Both the position numbers and the translations under genes were made by a program. Below are positions 49,657 to 62,620 of a stretch of 64,000 bases of DNA, piece after piece. The DNA comes from [Eubacterium] siraeum (GTDB lineage Bacteria; Bacillota; Clostridia; Oscillospirales; Ruminococcaceae). The stretch is taken from NCBI GenBank assembly GCA_025150425.1, contig CP102281.1, forward strand, positions 1,798,001 through 1,862,000, written 5' to 3'. The notes under the pieces are model-generated. The model saw only the letters and a program-made list of their open reading frames with translations. It did not search any database and was not told the DNA's origin. Positions within the stretch are counted from its first letter, which is position 1. Each line of letters opens with the position of its first letter.

Positions 49657-49866
49657 ATGGCCGCAAGCTATAAAAAATTGTTCAAGCTTCTGATCGACCG
49701 TGATATGAAAAAGAAAGAGCTCGCCAAAAAAGCCGATATCAGCATCGCCACCATTACAAAAATGGGCAAAGACGGCGCTGTCGTCTCCAGCGACGTCCTC
49801 GTAAAGATCTGTACCGCGCTTGAGTGTACTATGGACGATATAGTTGAGATAGTAAATGAAAAGTGA
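49657..49866 (+). CDS. XRE-family regulator of the restriction block
   Basis: 69 residues, one helix-turn-helix domain (MKKKELAKKADISIATITKMGKDGAVVSSDVLVKICTALECTMDDI). The start is the ATG after GAGGTG at eight bases; five upstream codons in frame are rejected. It overlaps or abuts the Mrr gene and leads the whole block, a position typical of controller proteins of restriction systems, which delay endonuclease synthesis after entry. That role is inferred from position. Confidence 0.85.
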   Translation: MAASYKKLFKLLIDRDMKKKELAKKADISIATITKMGKDGAVVSSDVLVKICTALECTMDDIVEIVNEK

Positions 49867-49879
49867 TAGGAGTTTGAAT

Positions 49880-50734
49880 GTGAAAAATAATATTGTTATA
49901 CCGACCTACGCTCAGTTGATTGAAAATACTTTTATTGCATTGAAGGAACTCGGGGGATCCGGAAAGAATACAGAAATCAACGATAAGGTCGCACAGTTAA
50001 TGAATCTTCCAGATGACGTTTTGGATGTTCCGCATCTTAACAGCAGTAGTATGTCCGAAGTGAATTATAGGTGTGCGTGGGCAAGAACACTTTTGAAGAA
50101 TCATGGTGCGATAGAAAACAGTGCAAGAAGTGTTTGGGCTATTACTGCTGCTTTTGCATCCGTGGAAACTATCGATGGAGACTACATAGAGAAGAATTGC
50201 AAAAAGCCGTCTCAAACTAAAAATGCGCCTGCAGAGGTGCAAATGGAAAACGCAGGTGTAGAGATTCCTGAAGAAGTAAGATCTTGGAGAAGCAAACTGC
50301 AAGATGTAATTCAAAATATGGATCCGTATGGATTTGAACGATTGACTCAAAGGTTACTTCGCGAATGTGGGTTTACACAGGTTGAAGTTACGAAAAAGTC
50401 GGGCGACGGCGGAATTGACGGTACCGGCAAATTGAAAATCAATGGTATTTTCAGCTTTAATATAGCTTTTCAATGCAAGCGTTATCACGGAGTGGTCGGT
50501 GCCGGTGATATACGAGATTTTCGTGGATCACTAACTACCAATATTGAAAAAGGCGTATTTATATCGACAGGATCTTTTTCTAAAGCAGCTATAGAGGAAG
50601 CTGCAGCTCCCGGAAAGCAACAAATCGATTTGATTGATGGCGAAGAATTCATCACTAAACTTGCCGAATTCGGTATCGGAGTTCATGAGATTAAAGACTA
50701 CGAAATTGATGAAGATTATTTCGCAAAAATCTGA
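49880..50734 (+). CDS. Mrr-type restriction endonuclease
   Basis: About 284 residues. The N-terminal Mrr_N winged domain (1-95) begins TYAQLIENTFIALKELGG. The C-terminal PD-(D/E)XK domain has MDPYGFERLTQRLLRECGFTQVEV, GDGGIDG and the core FQCKRY, followed by RDFRGSL and GVFISTGSFSKAA. Mrr enzymes usually cut methylated DNA, which would be odd beside three methyltransferases unless their pattern is spared. The GTG start has AGGAG at seven bases. An ATG eight codons earlier overlaps the XRE stop. Confidence 0.88.
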   Translation: MKNNIVIPTYAQLIENTFIALKELGGSGKNTEINDKVAQLMNLPDDVLDVPHLNSSSMSEVNYRCAWARTLLKNHGAIENSARSVWAITAAFASVETIDGDYIEKNCKKPSQTKNAPAEVQMENAGVEIPEEVRSWRSKLQDVIQNMDPYGFERLTQRLLRECGFTQVEVTKKSGDGGIDGTGKLKINGIFSFNIAFQCKRYHGVVGAGDIRDFRGSLTTNIEKGVFISTGSFSKAAIEEAAAPGKQQIDLIDGEEFITKLAEFGIGVHEIKDYEIDEDYFAKI

Positions 50735-50799
50735 GGTTTTCTCTGGACTTTTTGAAACGGTTGGATATAATTGTGGTTGCAAAAAAGGAGTAGCACATC

Positions 50800-52227
50800 A
50801 TGGATAATCATACCCCCGAACAGCGGCGCAAAAACATGAAGGCTGTGAAGAATAAGGATTCCGAAATAGAACGGTTGCTTCGCAAAGAATTATGGTCTCG
50901 CGGATTGCGCTATAGGAAAAATTACAAGAAAATCATAGGCAAACCCGATATCGTGTTTGTAGGTAAAAAAGTCGCAGTTTTCTGCGACAGCGAATTCTGG
51001 CACGGTTATGATTGGGAAAACAAAAAGAACGAAATTCAATCTCGTCGAGAATTTTGGATACCTAAGATCGAACGCAATATGCAAAGAGATATCGAAGTGA
51101 CTCAAACACTTGAAAATGAAGGCTGGACGGTGTTGCGATTCTGGGGGAATGATATCAAAAAGAAAACTAAAGAATGTGCTGATATAATCGAAAGGGCGGT
51201 AACAGCTAAAATGAAAGTATTCAGATCGATCGACCTGTTTGCGGGTATTGGTGGAATTCGTTTAGGATTCGAAAGAGCTTTTAAAAATCAGATAGAAACA
51301 GTATTTGTCAGCGAATGGGATGAATATGCTCAAAAGACATACAGAGCAAACTTTGAAGATGATTTTGAAATAGCCGGCGATATAACGAAGATAGATGAAA
51401 GCGATGTTCCCGAATTTGATATATGCTTAGCAGGATTTCCATGTCAGGCATTCAGCTTGGCGGGAAAAAGACAAGGCTTTGACGACAATTATAAAGGTTT
51501 ATGTAGAGGAACTCTATTCTTGGATGTGGCAAGAATTTGTGAACATCATCATCCGAGTGTAATATTCTGCGAGAATGTAAAAGGACTTGTGATCCATGAC
51601 AGAGGAAGAACTCTGCAAATCATCAAAAAAACTTTCACCGACCTCGGATATACGGTGTTTACGAATAATGATACAACACTTAACAGTAAAAATTTTGGTG
51701 TGCCTCAAAACAGAGAAAGAATCTATATTGTGGCATTTAGAAATGATATTGCACCTGAAAAATTCGAGTTCCCCCAAGGAAACGATGATACCAAAAGAAT
51801 TAAAGATATTATTGAAGAAAATCCTGTTCCCGCAAAATATTACCTCAGCGATGTATACTTGGAGACGCTTCGCCGACATAAAGCCAGACATGAATCCAAA
51901 GGGAACGGCTTCGGATATGAAGTAAGAGGGATGGAAGATATCGCAGGTGCTATTGTGTGCGGAGGAATGGGCAGAGAAAGAAATCTGATAGTCGATAACC
52001 GCCAAACAAATTTAACTCCTACTACCCACATCAAGGGTGAAGTAAACAGAGAAGGTATACGCAAAATGACTCCTCGTGAATGGGCAAGATTGCAAGGCTT
52101 CCCCGACACCTTCAAGCTTCCGCTTGCCGATGTACACCTGTATAAACAATTCGGTAACAGTGTTACCGTTAATGTAATAGAAGCGATTGCCGAGAAAATC
52201 AAGGAGGTGCTTGATAATGCCGATTAA
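50800..52227 (+). CDS. Vsr-like endonuclease fused to a C5-cytosine methyltransferase
   Basis: 475 residues. Residues 1-135 match very-short-patch repair endonucleases: RRKNMKAVKNKDSEIERLLRKELW, GKPDIVF with Asp50, FCDSEFWHGYDW and EGWTVLRFWGND. The usual zinc cysteines of Vsr are missing. Residues 138-475 form a full C5-methyltransferase: motif I FAGIGGIRLGFE, motif IV GFPCQAF with catalytic Cys215, ENV, motif VIII QNRERIY and motif X KQFGNSVTVN. Vsr corrects T:G mismatches from deaminated 5-methylcytosine, so fusion couples mutagenic methylation with repair. An internal ATG at codon 138 has only a weak binding site. ATG with AAGGAG upstream. Confidence 0.88.
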   Translation: MDNHTPEQRRKNMKAVKNKDSEIERLLRKELWSRGLRYRKNYKKIIGKPDIVFVGKKVAVFCDSEFWHGYDWENKKNEIQSRREFWIPKIERNMQRDIEVTQTLENEGWTVLRFWGNDIKKKTKECADIIERAVTAKMKVFRSIDLFAGIGGIRLGFERAFKNQIETVFVSEWDEYAQKTYRANFEDDFEIAGDITKIDESDVPEFDICLAGFPCQAFSLAGKRQGFDDNYKGLCRGTLFLDVARICEHHHPSVIFCENVKGLVIHDRGRTLQIIKKTFTDLGYTVFTNNDTTLNSKNFGVPQNRERIYIVAFRNDIAPEKFEFPQGNDDTKRIKDIIEENPVPAKYYLSDVYLETLRRHKARHESKGNGFGYEVRGMEDIAGAIVCGGMGRERNLIVDNRQTNLTPTTHIKGEVNREGIRKMTPREWARLQGFPDTFKLPLADVHLYKQFGNSVTVNVIEAIAEKIKEVLDNAD

Positions 52228-53362
52228 CGGATTAAAGCTTAATAAAGGCGAATGGGCGGAATTTTATGTTATGTTGAAGCTTCTCGGGGAAGGCAAGTTA
52301 TATACCGCCGATAAGCTTCTCCAAAAGAACTATCAAAGTTATTTGGATGTTTTGAAAGTCATTCGCCAGGAGTTTGATACTCAAGTTTTAGAATATGTTA
52401 TTGACAATAAAAGTAATACGGTAAATATAATACCTCAAGACACAAATACGGTTTTGGCGTCCGTTCCGATTTCTGAGTTTTCCGTAAATGCACAAAATTT
52501 GTTTGAAGGCATACGAAATCTTAAAGGCAGTTCTGTTCTTGCACCAGATTCGGTATGCAATTTTGCAAAGATAATCTATGTAGAAAAGCCGAAAGCTCCT
52601 GCCGTAAAAGCTTTGAAGAAGCAATTCGGAGGTAAAAACGATATCTTTGTTGAAGTCCGTGACGGTCAGACGTCAATTGTATCTGTAATGGGATTCTCCA
52701 TAAAATCCAAGTTCGGTCAAAATCCGACTCTGTTCAATGCGGGATCATCATCACAATTTTTATATAAGCTTTCCGATTGCAACGATGATCAAATGAGTCG
52801 TTTTAATTCAATTTCCGAAAACGGCGGTCGTGGCTGGGCAAAATGCAAAGAGTTTCTTTCGGAAAACAACATATCACTTGAATATTGCAAAGCACAAAAT
52901 CCTATTTATCAAGATAATCTGTTCCTTGTGCGTGAATCAATGGATAAAATCATTGCGTGGTGCTTCAAGGATAGGCTCATTGATGCCGAAGGTAATTTTG
53001 AAGTTAAAGAAACAGTAGAAAGAATGGCTTTGTCCAATCCGTTGAATGTCGGGAACCCCGATGTCTACTATGAAAAAGCCATGAAGGATTTCCTTATTGC
53101 AGGTTTCACCGGCATGACTGCCGGGAAGAAGTGGGACGGAAAAGAACAGGTTAACGGCGGTTACATAGTCGTTCTGGATGACGGTGATGTATTATGCTAT
53201 CATTCAAATGATCGTGAAGCTTTTCGTGATTATCTGTATCGAAACACATATTTTGAATATGTCAGTGCCGATAAATATGTTTGGAGCAGAATTATCAAAA
53301 TTGACGGTGAATACTATTTGCCGTTGAACGCTTCTGTCAGATTCAGGACTCGTACACGTTGA
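52217..53362 (+). CDS. HpaII-type restriction endonuclease
   Basis: About 381 residues. LKLNKGEWAEFYVMLKLLGEGKLYTADKLL at the N-terminus is the signature of the RE_HpaII family, whose founding member cuts CCGG. EVRDGQTSIVSVMGFSIKSKFG in the middle is the likely catalytic D...SxK-like core. The start is ATG with AAGGAGG upstream and overlaps the Vsr-methyltransferase stop by 11 bases. Tight coupling suggests that gene, or the methyltransferase that follows by one base, is the protecting partner. Target CCGG is inferred from the family only. Confidence 0.8.
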   Translation: MPINGLKLNKGEWAEFYVMLKLLGEGKLYTADKLLQKNYQSYLDVLKVIRQEFDTQVLEYVIDNKSNTVNIIPQDTNTVLASVPISEFSVNAQNLFEGIRNLKGSSVLAPDSVCNFAKIIYVEKPKAPAVKALKKQFGGKNDIFVEVRDGQTSIVSVMGFSIKSKFGQNPTLFNAGSSSQFLYKLSDCNDDQMSRFNSISENGGRGWAKCKEFLSENNISLEYCKAQNPIYQDNLFLVRESMDKIIAWCFKDRLIDAEGNFEVKETVERMALSNPLNVGNPDVYYEKAMKDFLIAGFTGMTAGKKWDGKEQVNGGYIVVLDDGDVLCYHSNDREAFRDYLYRNTYFEYVSADKYVWSRIIKIDGEYYLPLNASVRFRTRTR

Positions 53363-53363
53363 A

Positions 53364-54314
53364 ATGACTATAGGTAGTTTATTCGCCGGCATCGGCGGAA
53401 TCGATCTCGGCTTTGAACAAGCAGGCTTCAGAGCAATATGGGCAAATGATATCAATAAAAATGCTTGTAAAACATATCGGTACAATTTCCCGAATGTTAA
53501 TCTTTACGAGTGTGACATAAGATCTCTTGATCCGAGTATCCTTCAACCTGTTGATGTTCTTACGGCAGGCTTCCCCTGTCAGCCGTTTTCAGTTTGCGGA
53601 CAAAAGAAAGGTTTTGCAGACGAAAGAGGAAATCTGTTTTTTGAAATAATGCGGTTTGCAGATGTACTGCAACCTCCGATAATTTTTTTCGAAAATGTTG
53701 CAAATCTAACCGAGCACGATAACGGTCGGACATTCAATGTGATTCATAATGAATTGGTTTCTCGTGATTATGCAATAAGATATTTGATCGCCGACGCTTG
53801 CGATTACGGTATTCCACAGCATCGCACAAGGACATATATCGTCGCATTCAAATCGCAAAAAGCCTGCGACAGTTTCAGATTTCCCGAAAAGTGTGAATTA
53901 CAAAAACACTTATTTGATGTAATTGATAAAACTGTCAAAGGCAAAGACCGTTATTATGTTTCCGAAGGTTCTTATGAGCACAATCGTCTTTCGGCTGCTA
54001 TTACGGATGATAAACAAATATATCGTTTTTCGGACTACGGAATTCAAGCAAGCAAAGACGGAATTTCGTTTACGCTAAAAGCCAATATGGGGACTTGGAA
54101 AAATCGTGTGCCGTACATAAAAGACAATTTCGGTATACGTAAAATAACCCCCTATGAATGTCTTGCATTGCAAAGGTTTCCTAATAGCTTCAAATTTCCC
54201 GATATACCTATCGCAAGTGCGTACAAACAGTGCGGAAATTCGGTATGCGTGCCGTTGATACAGCAAATTGCAAAAAATATTTTTAAGTTGTTAGATGCAC
54301 AACTCTTTGGCTAA
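53364..54314 (+). CDS. C5-cytosine methyltransferase, second copy
   Basis: 316 residues, compact. Motif I SLFAGIGGIDLGFEQAGF, motif IV GFPCQPFSVCGQKKGF with catalytic Cys72, ENV as FFENVANL, motif VIII QHRTRTY and motif X KQCGNSVCVP are all present. The target recognition region (about 190-260) is short. The start follows the HpaII-type stop by one base, so it is translationally coupled and may be the true partner of that endonuclease. Confidence 0.92.
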   Translation: MTIGSLFAGIGGIDLGFEQAGFRAIWANDINKNACKTYRYNFPNVNLYECDIRSLDPSILQPVDVLTAGFPCQPFSVCGQKKGFADERGNLFFEIMRFADVLQPPIIFFENVANLTEHDNGRTFNVIHNELVSRDYAIRYLIADACDYGIPQHRTRTYIVAFKSQKACDSFRFPEKCELQKHLFDVIDKTVKGKDRYYVSEGSYEHNRLSAAITDDKQIYRFSDYGIQASKDGISFTLKANMGTWKNRVPYIKDNFGIRKITPYECLALQRFPNSFKFPDIPIASAYKQCGNSVCVPLIQQIAKNIFKLLDAQLFG

Positions 54315-54341: not shown

Positions 54342-55391
54342 ATGCCTGTTCAAACAATTGATTTATTTTGTGGCGTCGGAGGACTGACCCGCGGACTGCT
54401 TGATGCAGGATTAAATGTCGTTGCAGGATTTGATATTGATCCAACATGCCAATTTACCTATGAATTTAACAATCACGTTGATTACCATCTCCGTAATATT
54501 CGTGAAGTTATGGGTGAAGAACTCAACGAAATATATGATGAAAATGTAACTAAAATACTAGTCGGATGTGCGCCATGCCAGCCTTTTTCTCAAATGAGAT
54601 TTAAATATGGTGGCGCAAATCAAAATGACGAAAAATATGATCTTCTATTGGAATTCGGACGATTGATAGAAGAAATACACCCTACGGTTATTTCTATGGA
54701 AAACGTCCCTCAAATTCGTGAAACGGCAGTTTTTAATAGATTCCTTGAGGTTCTTAATAGAATCGGATACCATATTGATTCTAAAGTTATCTTTTGCCCG
54801 GATTACGGAATACCGCAAACGAGACGAAGGTTTGTACTTGTCGGATCGCTTTTAGGCGATATTCATATTATTCCGCCAACGCATAACAGTTTGAATATAC
54901 ATGTAAGAGATTTTATTGATGATTTGCCTGCACTTGCAGCCGGGCAAGTGGATGAAGCTGATCCATTGCATCGGAGTGCCTCGTTAACAGAAATAAACTT
55001 ACGCAGAATTCGTGCTTCCGTTCCGGGAGGGACTTGGAAAGATTGGCCTGAAGAATTAAGATGCAAATGTCATAAAAAAGAATCGGGACAGACATACGGC
55101 TCTGTTTACGGAAGAATGACTTGGGAACAAATCGGGCCGACAATAACAACCCAATTTTACAGCTACGGCACTGGTCGGTACGGCCATCCCGAACAAGATA
55201 GGGCACTATCTTTAAGAGAAGGAGCACTATTACAAACATTTCCGCGCAATTATAATTTCATTGATCCTAACAGACCTTTTGTCTTCAGAGATGTGGCAAG
55301 ACATATCGGTAACGCAGTTCCAGTTAGACTTGGAGAAGTAATTGGTTTATCAATAAGAGCTCATTTAATAAACAATGGTGTGGAGGTTTAA
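54342..55391 (+). CDS. C5-cytosine methyltransferase, third copy
   Basis: 349 residues. Motif I DLFCGVGGLTRGLLDAGL, motif IV GCAPCQPFSQM with catalytic Cys79, ENV as SMENVPQI, motif VIII QTRRRFV and motif X RHIGNAVPVRLGE. It is clearly a different subfamily from the other two. The target region (about 190-275) contains CKCHKKESGQTYGSVYGRM. ATG follows GGAAAGGGGC. It is followed directly by the GHKL-TIR gene, whose start lies one base after this stop, making them a likely functional pair. Confidence 0.92.
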   Translation: MPVQTIDLFCGVGGLTRGLLDAGLNVVAGFDIDPTCQFTYEFNNHVDYHLRNIREVMGEELNEIYDENVTKILVGCAPCQPFSQMRFKYGGANQNDEKYDLLLEFGRLIEEIHPTVISMENVPQIRETAVFNRFLEVLNRIGYHIDSKVIFCPDYGIPQTRRRFVLVGSLLGDIHIIPPTHNSLNIHVRDFIDDLPALAAGQVDEADPLHRSASLTEINLRRIRASVPGGTWKDWPEELRCKCHKKESGQTYGSVYGRMTWEQIGPTITTQFYSYGTGRYGHPEQDRALSLREGALLQTFPRNYNFIDPNRPFVFRDVARHIGNAVPVRLGEVIGLSIRAHLINNGVEV

Positions 55392-55392
55392 A

Positions 55393-57282
55393 ATGGAAAG
55401 AGAATTTAAATTAAAAGTTAGTCCGAGAATGCTTGAACTGCTGAGTAAAGATTTATATACAAATATGTATTTCGTGCTTGCCGAATTGATAGCAAATGCA
55501 TATGACGCTGAAGCTGAAAATGTTTATATCTTTATTGATGAACAAGAAATTCGTGTAGAAGATGATGGAAATGGTATGGATCCTGATAGCTTGGATCAAA
55601 AATATCTTCTCGTTGGAGGAGAATCAAGAGATTCAAAAGAAAATTCAAGTACAAAGACTAAAAAAAGATTAAAAATGGGCAGAAAAGGTGTTGGGAAATT
55701 AGCTGCTCTTTCAATCTCAAACGGATTTAAGCTGGTTACAGTATGTGATTCTGCAGCAACAGGATTGTTTATTCCAAATAGAATTGAACGCGATGATGAG
55801 ATACTTAAAATTTTGGATTCAAGCGAGTATTCTTTGAAAAAGATATCAACTCATGGAACCGCTGTAATTATGGAAAACCCTAAGATTTCCATTCCGAAAC
55901 TTCATGAAACGATATTGCGAAACCTCGCAAAAATATTTCCTAATGACATAGCTGATTTTAAAATTCATGTTATTTTCAAAGGCATTGAAAAAGAACTTGT
56001 GCCAGATGAAAATGATGTTATTAAAAGATTGGCATCATTTATTTCAATAGGTCAAGAGAAAAAAGAATTAGAAGCATCCCTGCCTACGGATCAAAAAAAT
56101 TTGCAAAAAGCTTCCGTTGAAACAATTTCAGAAACTATATCGATGCTTAATACAAAAGGTGTATCAGAAAATGTTACAGTATCCATATATGGTTGGATTG
56201 GTACATATCCAACCACGCGTGGAATGAAAAAGGAAATCAATGAGTTTTCTGATAACTATCTTGCTATTTTTGCTCACAATAAAATGGGGCTAAGAAATGT
56301 TCTTCCTATAGTAGGGAAAAATCGTGTTTATGAAAGCTATATTGTAGGGAACTTATACATAGATGCGTTTGAAGAACCAGATTTTCCAGACATGGCAGGA
56401 ACAAACAGACAGGGATATAATGAAAGTGACCCCAGATGGGAGTGCGCTTTAAAGTATATTCGTGAGCTTGTCGACAAAGCGGTTAAATTGCATGAAACTT
56501 TTGCCGTGGCAGAAAGAGCAACAAAAGAATCAGAAAAAGAAAGAAAAAAAGAGGAGGAGGAAAGATCGCTTCGTGAGAAACTTCAAACTACTACCAAAAC
56601 TATCACAGATAATATTACTGCACGAATTTCGGCAACCCCATCAAAGGAATGCATTGAAAAAGTAGTCACTGATGAAATTGAAGCGATGAAACCCCTTCTC
56701 GGCTTTAAATCTTCTGTTGATGCAAATAAGAAAAAAATAATGATTAGCCAAACATTAAAAGACAAAAAAGTCTCTGATACGATTTATAATATGCTTTTAT
56801 TTAATGGTGTCCCTAAAGAAGATATTATTTATTCCAATGGTTCAGATCCTGAAACTAACCTTCCAGAAAAAGATATATATGGATATTTACAGAAGTTTTT
56901 TATAAACAGTGCTTCTACGGAAATGATATATGTTTTGTTCGTGACAAGTAAAAATGTTCTAAATGTCGATCCAGAGCATCCTTCTGCAGCTTGGGGTGAA
57001 TTAATGGAAATCGGAGCCGCTTGGGTAACCAAAAAAGACCATTGGATATTTAATATTAATGATTTTAAGCCGGAACAACCTTTGAATATAGAAAACAAAT
57101 GGGTGGCAGTATATACAAAAGATGATGATGATGGACAGGTCATTCTGTCGTTGACGGAAGCAATGGTTAATAGTTTTTGCATAAAAATCATAAGTACCTG
57201 TCAGGCATGCGGATATGCAGCAAAATCTTTTGAAAGTAACAAAGAGCATCTTGTGAAAAACTATGTTACTATATACAACTAA
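55393..57282 (+). CDS. GHKL-type ATPase with C-terminal TIR-like domain
   Basis: 629 residues. The N-terminal GHKL ATPase (about 1-200, Hsp90/MutL/MORC type) has the N-box AELIANAYDAEA, DDGNGMD at 57-63 and GRKGVGKLA from 96. A second sandwich-like domain follows to about 370, then a charged coiled coil (about 375-405). From about 446 the sequence looks like TIR: IMISQTLKDKKVSDTIYNML, EDIIYSNG, EMIYVLFVTSKNVL and SAAWGELMEIGAAW, where Glu539 fits the catalytic glutamate of E-x-GAAW TIR enzymes. ATP-driven sensing linked to NAD+ cleavage is inferred. AT-rich, unlike the integrases. ATG with GGAGG at seven bases. Confidence 0.75.
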   Translation: MEREFKLKVSPRMLELLSKDLYTNMYFVLAELIANAYDAEAENVYIFIDEQEIRVEDDGNGMDPDSLDQKYLLVGGESRDSKENSSTKTKKRLKMGRKGVGKLAALSISNGFKLVTVCDSAATGLFIPNRIERDDEILKILDSSEYSLKKISTHGTAVIMENPKISIPKLHETILRNLAKIFPNDIADFKIHVIFKGIEKELVPDENDVIKRLASFISIGQEKKELEASLPTDQKNLQKASVETISETISMLNTKGVSENVTVSIYGWIGTYPTTRGMKKEINEFSDNYLAIFAHNKMGLRNVLPIVGKNRVYESYIVGNLYIDAFEEPDFPDMAGTNRQGYNESDPRWECALKYIRELVDKAVKLHETFAVAERATKESEKERKKEEEERSLREKLQTTTKTITDNITARISATPSKECIEKVVTDEIEAMKPLLGFKSSVDANKKKIMISQTLKDKKVSDTIYNMLLFNGVPKEDIIYSNGSDPETNLPEKDIYGYLQKFFINSASTEMIYVLFVTSKNVLNVDPEHPSAAWGELMEIGAAWVTKKDHWIFNINDFKPEQPLNIENKWVAVYTKDDDDGQVILSLTEAMVNSFCIKIISTCQACGYAAKSFESNKEHLVKNYVTIYN

Positions 57283-59002: not shown

Positions 59003-59147
59003 GCGAGGGGTTGCCTTGCTTTCCCCTCGCAGGACACAGCGGACGGCAACGCCGACCGCATAAGGGTTTGTACGGCTTTTGCAATCCGGTTACGAAACCG
59101 CAATTTAGGGGTTGCTCGAATTTTAACCTCGCTGATTTAGGGGTTGC
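59003..59147. repeat. Hairpin and two direct repeats upstream of the first integrase gene
   Basis: GCGAGGGG and CCCCTCGC (59003-59010 and 59023-59030) form an 8-bp hairpin. ATTTAGGGGTTGC occurs at 59103-59115 and again at 59135-59147, each followed by GAATTTTA. These may be binding sites for the initiator-like or integrase proteins. Confidence 0.5.
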
Positions 59148-59223
59148 GAATTTTACCGCAAATTTAGCTGGATATTCCGCCATGCATGTGGTATTGTGTT
59201 GTACTGCGAAAGGAAGTGATACT

Positions 59224-60399
59224 ATGGCAAAACGAAGACCGTCGGGAGACGGTATGGTGCGCAAGCGCGAAGACGGAAGATGGGAAGGCCGCATCGTTGT
59301 CGGTCACAAAAAGAACGGCGATCCGATTCACCGCTATGTGCTTGCCCGAACACAAAAGGAGTTAATCGTAAAGCTCCACGACTGCATCGAGATGTACCGC
59401 GACGCCGACCTCACCGAGGATTCGAATATGATGCTCGGCGAGTGGCTTGACCGATGGATCAATGAATATATGATCTTCACAATTCGCGAGAGCACGCTGG
59501 ATTCTTACAAAGCGATGATTAAAAATCAAATCAAACCGTATCTCGGCGACAGACCTTTGTCGGCGCTGACCACGCAGGAACTTCAAAAATTCTATAACAC
59601 CGTCAAAAAGAAAGGTCGTGTGAAAGCAGACAAGCTGCACGGTACAGAGCTTGCCGACAGTATGGTGCGCGGTATTCATATGATGTTGCACGAAGCACTC
59701 GATATGGCGGTGCGCCTACGGCTGATTGTTAAAAATCCAACGGTCGGCACAACGATTCCCAAAAACAATTATCCGCCGAAGCAGATACTCAATGACGAAC
59801 AGCTTGAGCGATTCATGCAGCGCATCCGACAGGATGAACGGTGGTACGATTTCTTCTACACCGAGCTGACCACAGGACTGCGGCGGGGTGAAATCTGCGG
59901 ACTGAAGTGGGAGGACTTCGATGCGGAAAACGGAAAGCTGAAAGTGAGGCGCTCGGTTGCTAAAAGGAAAGGCGGCGGATTGAATATCGGCGAAACCAAA
60001 ACCGAGACGGGAACGCGCACGATTGTCCTGCCGCCGAGCACTGCGGAACTTCTGCGGAAGCGAAAAGAAACGGCAGTCAGCGAATGGATATTCCCGAATA
60101 TCTATGAGCCCGAAAAACCGATGCACCCCGACTATGCTTACCACCGATTAAAAACACTGTTAAAACAGGCGGAGCTTCCGCTGATTCGGTTCCACGATCT
60201 GCGCCACACCTTCGCCACTCACGCGCTGGCGGGCGGCGTGGATGCGAAAACCCTGTCGGGAATCCTCGGGCATACCAACGCCAGCTTTACGCTGGACACC
60301 TACACCCATGTGACCACCGATATGCAGAGAAACGCTTCCGCTATCGTGGGGAGCTTTATGGATGAGATTATGCTTGAAGGAGATGATACCAATCGCTAA
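59224..60399 (+). CDS. int: Tyrosine integrase, first of two
   Basis: 391 residues. N-terminal arm-binding three-stranded sheet (MAKRRPSGDG...GRWEGRIVVGHKKNGDPI), core-binding SAM-like domain (about 70-165, DRWINEYMIFTIRESTLDSYKAMI), and catalytic domain with Arg in TTGLRRGEICGLKW, FHDLRHTFATHAL, LGHTNASFTL and the nucleophile Tyr in DTYTH. The R-K-H-R-H-Y set is complete. Tn916/phage type. The ATG follows AAAGGAAG; a longer frame without a binding site is rejected. Its end overlaps the second integrase. Confidence 0.95.
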   Translation: MAKRRPSGDGMVRKREDGRWEGRIVVGHKKNGDPIHRYVLARTQKELIVKLHDCIEMYRDADLTEDSNMMLGEWLDRWINEYMIFTIRESTLDSYKAMIKNQIKPYLGDRPLSALTTQELQKFYNTVKKKGRVKADKLHGTELADSMVRGIHMMLHEALDMAVRLRLIVKNPTVGTTIPKNNYPPKQILNDEQLERFMQRIRQDERWYDFFYTELTTGLRRGEICGLKWEDFDAENGKLKVRRSVAKRKGGGLNIGETKTETGTRTIVLPPSTAELLRKRKETAVSEWIFPNIYEPEKPMHPDYAYHRLKTLLKQAELPLIRFHDLRHTFATHALAGGVDAKTLSGILGHTNASFTLDTYTHVTTDMQRNASAIVGSFMDEIMLEGDDTNR

Positions 60400-61813
60400 A
60401 AAAAGAAAAAATGGTGAGGGCACATTACGCCTGCGTAAAGACGGTCGGTGGGAAGGAAGAATTGTTGTCGGGTACAATGAGAAAAGCCTGCCTATTACAA
60501 AATGCGTAACCGCCAAGACAAAAACAGAATGTTCCACTAAGCTCGAAGCGCTGAAAGAACAGTACGGACGCTCTTCCGATAAAATTAAACCGGATATGCC
60601 GTTCGGGGATTGGATCGACTTCTGGTATCAGACCTACTGCCGACACACACTCCGTATTACCACAAGAACCGACTATGAAAACCGCATTTACAATCATATC
60701 ATTCCCGAAATCGGAAAAATTCCGCTGAACAGGATGTCACAGTCGGATTTACAGCAATTCTACGCAAAGGAAAAGACAGACGGAAGAAAACTGCACGCAA
60801 AAACCTACGGAAAGGGACTTTCGGACAGAACGATAAGGGGGATACATGCCAACTGCCGAACAGCTTTACAGCGGGCGGTACAGGACGGTTTGATACGAAC
60901 AAATCCCGCTGTCTGCTGTAAACTGCCGCCGAAAAAAGCGCGGGAGATGCAGGTGCTGACGCAAAATGAGATTCTGCGGTTTCTGCATCAGGCAAAGGAA
61001 GAAGGATATTATGAACTTTTTCTGCTGGAGCTCGGCACGGGAATGCGGCGCGGTGAAATATTGGCGCTCAAATGGAGCGACCTCAACTTCGCAACAGGAG
61101 AGCTTCGCATTGAACGGCAGGTATATATCATCAAGGCAGAGGTGATTATATCGGCGCCGAAAACAAAAGCCTCGATACGCACCGTTATTCTGCCACCGTC
61201 ACTCTTGAAAACCCTTGTGGCGTATAAGGAAACGGTGGATTCGGAATGGATGTTTCCGTCACCGACAGATAACGGCAGACCGAGAAATCCGTCATCGGTT
61301 AGGAAACGGTTACAACTGATCTTGGAACGGGCGGGCTGTAAAAAGGTGCGCTTTCACGATCTGCGTCACACCTTTGCTACCATGGCACTGGAAAACGGAA
61401 TGGACATCAAAACGCTGTCCGCCATGATAGGCCATGTCAGCGCGGAAACCACGCTCAATATTTATAGCCATATCACCGATACTATGCAAAGGCAGGCGGC
61501 GGTGCATATCGACCGCAAAATCGGCGGCACAGACGCCCGTATGCCGACAGAAAAGCGGGAGGAAAGGAAAGATACCTCCCCGATCGAATTCACGCCGTAC
61601 AAGCCCAAAATACGAAAGCCCGGGACGGGTTGTGTCACCATGATTAACGGCCACCTCTACGAGGGACGGTACACACCAACCAATGCCTACGGCAAGCGGG
61701 AAAGCCACAATATCTACGCGAAAACGCGCGAGGAATGCGAAGATAAGCTCGCGGAAATGATTGTGCAGGTCAAGGCGCAAATCAAGGCGGAAAAAGAGAA
61801 AATGACAGGGTGA
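60383..61813 (+). CDS. int: Tyrosine integrase, second of two, with extra C-terminal domain
   Basis: 476 residues and related to the first integrase but clearly diverged. Catalytic set: GTGMRRGEILALKW, FHDLRHTFATMAL, IGHVSAETTL and the nucleophile in NIYSH. After the catalytic domain it has about 75 extra residues. There, NGHLYEGRYTPTN and YAKTREECEDKLAEM repeat the pattern of its own N-terminal arm-binding domain (GRWEGRIVVG, TAKTKTECSTKLEAL). The start overlaps the first gene by 17 bases; an ATG seven codons earlier is an alternative. Confidence 0.93.
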   Translation: MIPIAKKRKNGEGTLRLRKDGRWEGRIVVGYNEKSLPITKCVTAKTKTECSTKLEALKEQYGRSSDKIKPDMPFGDWIDFWYQTYCRHTLRITTRTDYENRIYNHIIPEIGKIPLNRMSQSDLQQFYAKEKTDGRKLHAKTYGKGLSDRTIRGIHANCRTALQRAVQDGLIRTNPAVCCKLPPKKAREMQVLTQNEILRFLHQAKEEGYYELFLLELGTGMRRGEILALKWSDLNFATGELRIERQVYIIKAEVIISAPKTKASIRTVILPPSLLKTLVAYKETVDSEWMFPSPTDNGRPRNPSSVRKRLQLILERAGCKKVRFHDLRHTFATMALENGMDIKTLSAMIGHVSAETTLNIYSHITDTMQRQAAVHIDRKIGGTDARMPTEKREERKDTSPIEFTPYKPKIRKPGTGCVTMINGHLYEGRYTPTNAYGKRESHNIYAKTREECEDKLAEMIVQVKAQIKAEKEKMTG

Positions 61814-61867: not shown

Positions 61868-62521
61868 CTAATTAAAATATTGATTATAAATTTGATTGAC
61901 AGCTTCAACATAAACAATAAATGACGGATGATCTTTCTCTAACGGATGAGATAAATATAGATTTTTAAGATAAATATATCGCTCTCTTACATCAAGCCAT
62001 AAATCATTGATTTTGATTTGTTTTACCTTTTGCGCTATGTTGTGAGAGCTTGGAACCTCATTCCAAACATACTGGTCATTACCGTATTCCCAGACATTTT
62101 TATTATGAATCAACCTGCACAGTGTTCCATCAGAATTTTTGGCGACAATTGCAACATCAAAACTAAATTCAACTGCAGGTTCATCTTTGAAATGTAACAG
62201 AGCTGTCAAGCATGAAGTTGAATCTTGTGATTCGGAAAAGCAAGTCAATCCTTCAGCTTTATCAAGCAAAATACGAACGGTATTTTTTAAATGACGCAGA
62301 TCATTCCAATATTCGTCCGGAGCTTTAATTATTTCAAGGTTGTAGTCAAGGTCAAACGGTCCATTGCCGTTTCGTGTAACCATATTTCTTGCTCCACTGC
62401 CAACAAGAGTAAATTGGGCGTTAATGCATTTTTCCTTAAGTAAGGCACATGTCTTTTTTAAGACATGTGAACAGTCAGAGCGATACCTTTTGCATTCTGA
62501 CTCATTGACAATTCTGTACAT
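61868..62521 (-). CDS. Nucleotidyltransferase-fold protein
   Basis: 217 residues. GSGAR at 41-45, Asp57 and Asp59 in FDLDYNL, and Asp122 in VEFSFDVAIV form the G-S...D-x-D...D catalytic set of the nucleotidyltransferase (pol beta) superfamily. The C-terminal helices (HNIAQKVKQIKINDLWLDVRERYIYLK) may form a substrate-binding cap. The product (nucleotide second messenger, antibiotic or tRNA modification) is unknown. It lies alone between integrases and the element's tRNA-Pro, on the opposite strand, the usual place for cargo. ATG with AAGGAG upstream. Confidence 0.7.
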   Translation of the reverse strand: MYRIVNESECKRYRSDCSHVLKKTCALLKEKCINAQFTLVGSGARNMVTRNGNGPFDLDYNLEIIKAPDEYWNDLRHLKNTVRILLDKAEGLTCFSESQDSTSCLTALLHFKDEPAVEFSFDVAIVAKNSDGTLCRLIHNKNVWEYGNDQYVWNEVPSSHNIAQKVKQIKINDLWLDVRERYIYLKNLYLSHPLEKDHPSFIVYVEAVNQIYNQYFN

Positions 62522-62620
62522 TTTATATTTCTCCTTTTCGCCCATGCCACCCATTCAACACTTTAGTGATAAATCATTAAATTATATCAGAAAATTTTTA
62601 TTTGTCAATACTCATTCTGA

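Follow-up and report, generated by a model that had tools for sequence, protein, structure and literature searches.

We analysed a 64,000-nt stretch of the [Eubacterium] siraeum genome (assembly GCA_025150425.1, contig CP102281.1, positions 1,798,001 to 1,862,000; hereafter the window), in which the gene of a C5-cytosine methyltransferase (M) is followed by that of a protein joining a GHKL-S5 ATPase to a TIR domain (GHKL-TIR). The two genes are examined here as a candidate restriction-modification-like defence pair. Their parts are as follows.

54342..55391, + strand: C5-cytosine methyltransferase M (349 aa), putative guard
55382..55386, + strand: GGAGG within the 3' end of M, read from the sequence as a plausible ribosome-binding site for GHKL-TIR
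55393..57282, + strand: GHKL-S5-TIR protein, 629 aa, the proposed sensor plus effector
55465..55848, + strand: GHKL ATPase domain, residues 25-152 (Pfam HATPase_c_3)
55960..56427, + strand: S5/transducer-like domain, residues ~190-345, with a conserved DMAxTNRQG
56431..56634, + strand: long helix, residues 347-414, linking ATPase to TIR in the structure model
56728..57207, + strand: TIR domain, residues ~446-605
57007..57009, + strand: Glu539, predicted catalytic glutamate, placed by alignment with SpbK E192

The coordinates, frame and motifs of 55393..57282 are as the original prediction, made from the sequence alone, had described them. M ends in a TAA at 55389-55391 and the GHKL-TIR ATG stands at 55393-55395, leaving the single base between the genes that had been reported, with GGAGG six bases upstream of this ATG. 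An alternative in-frame ATG lies at 55375; the start at 55393 is favoured because most listed homologues are 620-635 aa long. The GHKL motifs recognised at the N-terminus were borne out by a Pfam match to HATPase_c_3 (3.8e-19, residues 25-152) and by conservation among 112 full-length homologues, taken from 120 listed of 1233 found. The N-box (E31, N35, D38), D57, D58, G59, G61 and M62 of the DDGNGM motif (57-62), and G96, R97, K98, G99, G101 and K102 of the GRKGVGK motif (96-102) are each present in 112/112. A fold search with the whole structure model matched the ATPase half alone, and the TIR domain was therefore folded separately.

Pfam TIR families gave no match to the GHKL-TIR protein at E<=1. 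The TIR domain that had been read from its pattern was recovered by profile search with the PADLOC spbK model (1.1e-15, residues 441-599) and by comparison with the PDB SpbK chain (3.2e-5 with the single sequence, 1.2e-9 with a profile). Ser452, Asp457, Ser519, Trp534, Glu539, Gly541 and Trp544 each occur in 112/112 full-length homologues, which argues that the TIR match is not due to chance. Glu539, singled out earlier as catalytic, aligns with SpbK E192, the chain offset of 24 being taken from the N-E-x-G-x-x-W pattern, and was also found in all 71 rows with a letter at that position in a more diverse set of 72 (71 loci plus the window). When modelled alone, the TIR domain adopted the flavodoxin-like TIR fold with a predicted template-modelling score of 0.80, so that the expected fold held. 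The pocket expected around Glu539 was modelled with low confidence: the ten-residue block containing it has a mean predicted local distance difference test score (pLDDT) of 56, and residues 529-546 fall below 50 in the full-protein model. By sequence, the putative catalytic Glu would lie on helix alpha-C, at a site of low local model confidence. We regard NADase activity of the GHKL-TIR protein as predicted.

M matched Pfam DNA_methylase (1.4e-56) and the PADLOC models DrmMII (4.6e-89) and MTase_II (1.3e-81). The neighbourhoods of 79 distinct GHKL-TIR loci were surveyed; these rank highest among at least 562 relatives in one scan of named genomes, so distant forms are under-represented. They span 19 phylum names (5 loci carry none), with 77 bacterial and 2 archaeal loci. 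Gene labels came from profiles of window, L019 and homologue sequences and covered M, GHKL-TIR, Vsr, one L019 gene and DISARM genes; membership of the M subfamily was set at >390 bits on a profile built in this analysis. An M of one subfamily lay within 200 bp in 54/79 loci, at 201-1000 bp in 6 and farther away in 11 (10 of them DISARM operons), and was unseen in 8; the linkage of GHKL-TIR to a C5-methyltransferase, earlier proposed from this one locus, thus recurs. Where M lies upstream within 200 bp and on the same strand (44 loci), the spacing, counted to the first possible start, ranged from -44 to 85 bases. M was on the opposite strand in 10/71 loci. For L065 and L072, where the open reading frame call splits the GHKL-TIR gene in two, the larger piece was used.

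Searches of the genomes of the eight loci lacking M recovered an M relative for four (L013, L016 at 43% identity, L032 and L077), a 149-aa fragment for L049 and only a distant methyltransferase for L080; those of L043 and L085 yielded no M relative. At L013 the adjacent M is split into three frames, and elsewhere the genome holds another, unbroken M with 52% identity to that of the window. This is as expected if loss of M is not tolerated, in a single case whose break could be an assembly error.

Within the genus of the window, 4/71 genomes matched the GHKL-TIR protein at E<=0.001, at full length only in the window's own genome, and a plasmid search gave 1 match in 72,556 records. Among viral contigs (80 of 94 relatives kept), only L141 was near full length (residues 3-620, 1e-149), followed by a match at 2e-34. 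This 62-kb contig, listed as viral, carries the GHKL-TIR gene and, 574 bp downstream, an M (L141:3983-7496). At L015:3990-9631, one M lies between two GHKL genes, in the order 719-aa GHKL protein, M, 88-aa M-like piece and GHKL-TIR; the C-terminus of the 719-aa protein looks TIR-like by eye and had no match to PADLOC spbK.

The nearest relatives of the pair, which the original prediction did not name, are the BbrUII/HgiDII type II restriction-modification systems and the GHKL-TIR form of DISARM. The BbrUII/HgiDII restriction-enzyme model NF050001 scored 200.7 bits on the window protein, over residues 5-418 only and against a cut-off of 550, so the protein is not a full member. The window protein and the BbrUII/HgiDII enzymes share a GHKL-S5 N-terminus and a neighbouring M from one subfamily, target-recognition region included; where those enzymes carry a C-terminal PD-(D/E)xK nuclease, however, the window protein carries a TIR domain. 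Eight NF050001 members exceeded the cut-off (L088, L121, L123-L127 and L138), and a D...(E/D)xK-type pattern was found in the C-terminal part of all eight versus 0/72 GHKL-TIR rows. Five of the eight have an M of the subfamily nearby, within 160 bp in L088, L124, L126 and L138 and at 474 bp in L121; the short loci of L123, L125 and L127 showed none. The window M shares 49-51% of its residues with its counterparts in L088, L093 and L019, and in the comparison with L088, where the partner is an NF050001 member, the identity of 49% extends through the target-recognition region. By sequence, it belongs to the subfamily of M found in BbrUII/HgiDII-type systems and in GHKL-TIR DISARM operons. On two archaeal plasmids, M overlaps the gene of an ATP-binding protein scoring 793.8 and 800.8 bits on NF050001. 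In the window's phylum, 379/398 genomes matched NF050001 at E<=0.001, mostly weakly and through other GHKL proteins, with 1 over the cut-off; the phylum of L019 gave 3/398 at 1e-40, one being L019 itself, and that of L021 gave 16/395 including L021, with 5 genomes over the cut-off.

In a tree of the GHKL part, 73 TIR rows fell on one side of a branch with a starred support of 100. Mapping partner type onto the M tree (85 proteins; rows below 300 aa, L045 and L055, were excluded) requires 8 changes for TIR, of which starred branches force at least 5, as well as 5 for nuclease partners, with at least 4 forced, and 2 for RX4H partners. Set against each other, these quick trees, in which some long branches are flagged, indicate that M and its restriction-type partners have re-paired more than once. 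The RX4H partners are GHKL proteins with a C-terminal RX4H motif that adjoin an M of the same subfamily (L129:958-2607 and L130:967-2655; 520 and 502 bits). This C-terminus is possibly HEPN, and so a further effector type; the motif was recognised by eye, with no Pfam match (L129 was scanned minus its first residue). The subfamily of M also occurs on plasmids behind a DUF262 gene and the gene of a HEPN-like nuclease of the MAE_28990 family (L230:2149-5035, L235:2162-5068).

We then compared the target-recognition regions of the M proteins with their catalytic cores. The identity ratio of the two was 1.04 in 2628 pairs of M from TIR loci and 1.06 in 365 pairs between TIR and nuclease loci, versus 0.45 for control C5-methyltransferases of the same loci (32 pairs with core identity 0.40-0.60; 0.40 over all 171 pairs) and 0.77 in 1482 family-control pairs. 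The target-recognition region is thus as conserved as the core, which argues for one recognition sequence across the M family. The published M.HgiDII site is GTCGAC, and a Haloferax homologue, HVO_C0040, is apparently inactive, according to the relevant text of PMC5867850. GTCGAC is the most likely site of M, where M.HgiDII is represented by its published site and the sequences compared are the M of NF050001 members.

DISARM is the second setting of the pair. drmA and drmB were both labelled in 14/79 loci, and, counting labelled genes only, GHKL-TIR comes after drmMI in 13 of these and has drmA next in 11, with unlabelled genes intervening in some, such as L033 and L055. At L019, GHKL-TIR has M, Vsr, a helicase and a 1448-aa gene around it and DrmA, DrmB and DrmC after it. 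On PADLOC, this M fits MTase_II best (289.6 bits), then DrmMII (269.4), the helicase a model named DrmA (1724.6), then DrmD (1530.4), and the 1448-aa gene a type IIG enzyme (2072), then DrmMI (1975). On a Microvirga plasmid, Vsr and a gene annotated drmD come after an M from the subfamily, and the plasmid search gave no GHKL-TIR match there, so an M/drmD operon can do without GHKL-TIR. The window shares its M subfamily with the GHKL-TIR DISARM operons but has no match to drmA, drmB, drmC or drmD. In open-licence PubMed Central, a single paper was found to contain both DISARM and GHKL, and its retrieved text concerns an unrelated kinase.

The original prediction knew of no named system with this layout. 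GHKL-S5 proteins with a C-terminal TIR in restriction-modification neighbourhoods were, however, described in 2008 as paraMORC4 (Iyer, Abhiman, Aravind; PMC2292703), and the window protein shares both the domain order and the setting. In its passages on paraMORC4, that paper suggests a nuclease or binding site for the TIR domain, in contrast to the NADase reading here, and mentions neither a single M subfamily, nor an M common with BbrUII-type enzymes, nor DISARM. Its first-TIR-loop motif, Hx[ST]xD, is replaced by Q453-T-L-K-D457 in the window and occurs in 0/112 close homologues and 10/72 wider rows; strict paraMORC4 membership is therefore not claimed. SpbK, a Bacillus subtilis TIR NADase, is described as being activated by the phage portal protein YonE, as needing clustering of its TIR domains for activity and as producing both ADP-ribose (ADPR) and N1-cADPR (PMC12847820). 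It shares with the window protein the TIR fold, the Glu and two filament-interface residues, Gly and Trp, but has another sensor half, a portal-protein trigger and, in the text retrieved, no methyltransferase partner. Fusions of paraMORC to HEPN(Ymh) in restriction loci were published in 2013 (PMC3710099). Similar proteins in L133, L134 and L136 likewise place another C-terminal effector behind GHKL beside M; in contrast to the window, their effector is a HEPN domain (PF09509) and their M is more distant (321-355 bits). A GHKL-nuclease Shedu protein is described in PMC12137116, and the retrieved portions of PMC4618763, PMC4537262, PMC7720504, PMC13373217, PMC7824862 and PMC8011034 hold nothing on this pair. 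The domain architecture has thus been known since 2008 and, separately, so have TIR NADase biochemistry, DISARM and BbrUII/HgiDII; among the top-listed open-licence PubMed Central papers, none was found that joins GHKL-TIR, the M subfamily, BbrUII/HgiDII and DISARM.

Taken together, we consider it fairly probable that GHKL-TIR and M form a restriction-modification-like defence pair in which unmarked foreign DNA leads to NAD+ cleavage and a stopped cell. M would methylate a short sequence, most likely GTCGAC, and so label host DNA as self. DNA would be surveyed by the GHKL-S5 part, a relative of MORC ATPases and of the BbrUII/HgiDII enzymes. ATP-dependent dimerisation is established for the GHKL ATPases MutL, Hsp90 and MORC; dimerisation or clamping driven by ATP at unmethylated target sites of incoming DNA would cluster the C-terminal TIR domains, whose NAD+ cleavage would then halt the infected cell. 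This reading draws on sequence and comparison: the domain make-up, the conserved ATPase and TIR residues, the very frequent pairing with one M subfamily, its occurrence with nuclease-type partners as well, and the conserved target-recognition region. They lend support to the earlier idea of DNA-state sensing coupled to an abortive NADase; from them we infer the NADase activity, the DNA trigger and its coupling through GHKL closure to TIR firing, the exact site and the abortive outcome.

A genuine TIR NADase could instead respond to a phage protein or to a DNA structure such as ends or replication forks, with M as separate or accessory protection. DNA binding by some MORC proteins is not sequence-specific, the M subfamily is also found with other partners, and in the 14 DISARM loci DrmAB already detects unmethylated DNA without a set sequence; YonE activation of SpbK offers a precedent for a phage trigger. 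M nevertheless remains near GHKL-TIR even when inverted, and its subfamily is also paired with enzymes from a curated restriction-enzyme family, so we hold this account to be rather unlikely. Less probable still is a TIR domain that produces cyclic ADPR as a signal to another effector, or serves as a scaffold, with no NAD+ depletion. Some TIR domains do signal, and the SpbK products include N1-cADPR, while the invariance of the catalytic Glu argues against a mere scaffold.

The 2008 proposal would make the TIR-like domain a nuclease or nucleic-acid binding site and the protein an ordinary restriction enzyme, in keeping with relatives that carry a nuclease at the same position. The fold and residues fit NADase TIRs, however, and the nuclease pattern common to NF050001 members is absent from all the GHKL-TIR rows, which makes this highly improbable. 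We give an equally slight chance to MutL-like DNA repair together with the neighbouring Vsr: GHKL-S5 resembles MutL, a Vsr gene is labelled in 25/79 loci and the window has a Vsr fusion upstream of the pair, but 54/79 loci have no labelled Vsr, TIR has no role in MutL repair and the neighbours are defence genes.

If the defence-pair reading is true, a restriction-modification system would halt or kill the cell by NAD+ loss rather than by DNA cutting, triggered by a missing methyl mark, and two large branches of bacterial immunity would be joined. The family reported in 2008, which was given no function, would become directly testable in E. coli, and a role would be suggested for the GHKL-TIR gene inside DISARM operons. 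There would also be a natural effector-exchange series bearing on how GHKL ATPases read DNA, a question common with eukaryotic MORC. More tentatively, and with the balance slightly against it, one cytosine methyl mark (probably GTCGAC) may be the self-signal common to GHKL sensors with PD-(D/E)xK nuclease, TIR NADase and HEPN-type RNase effectors, the TIR version also acting as an abortive backup in DISARM; restriction-modification and NAD-depleting abortive infection would then be two outputs of one module.

The pair is preceded by further restriction genes and followed by integrase and tRNA genes.

49856-54314, + strand: Mrr-type gene, HpaII-type restriction gene and second C5-methyltransferase, directly upstream of the pair
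50800-52227, + strand: Vsr mismatch endonuclease (residues 1-117) and C5-methyltransferase (141-468) fused in one frame, also upstream
59011-60399 and 60362-61813, + strand: two overlapping tyrosine integrase frames, downstream
61868-62554, - strand: 228-aa protein with GSGARNM..FDLDYN, nucleotidyltransferase-like by eye, with no Pfam family over the cut-off in a scan minus its first residue
62666-63988: tRNA-Pro, -Gln and -His

Additional C5-methyltransferases also precede the pair in relatives such as L009, L011 and L014. The two integrase frames just downstream suggest that the pair lies in a mobile island.
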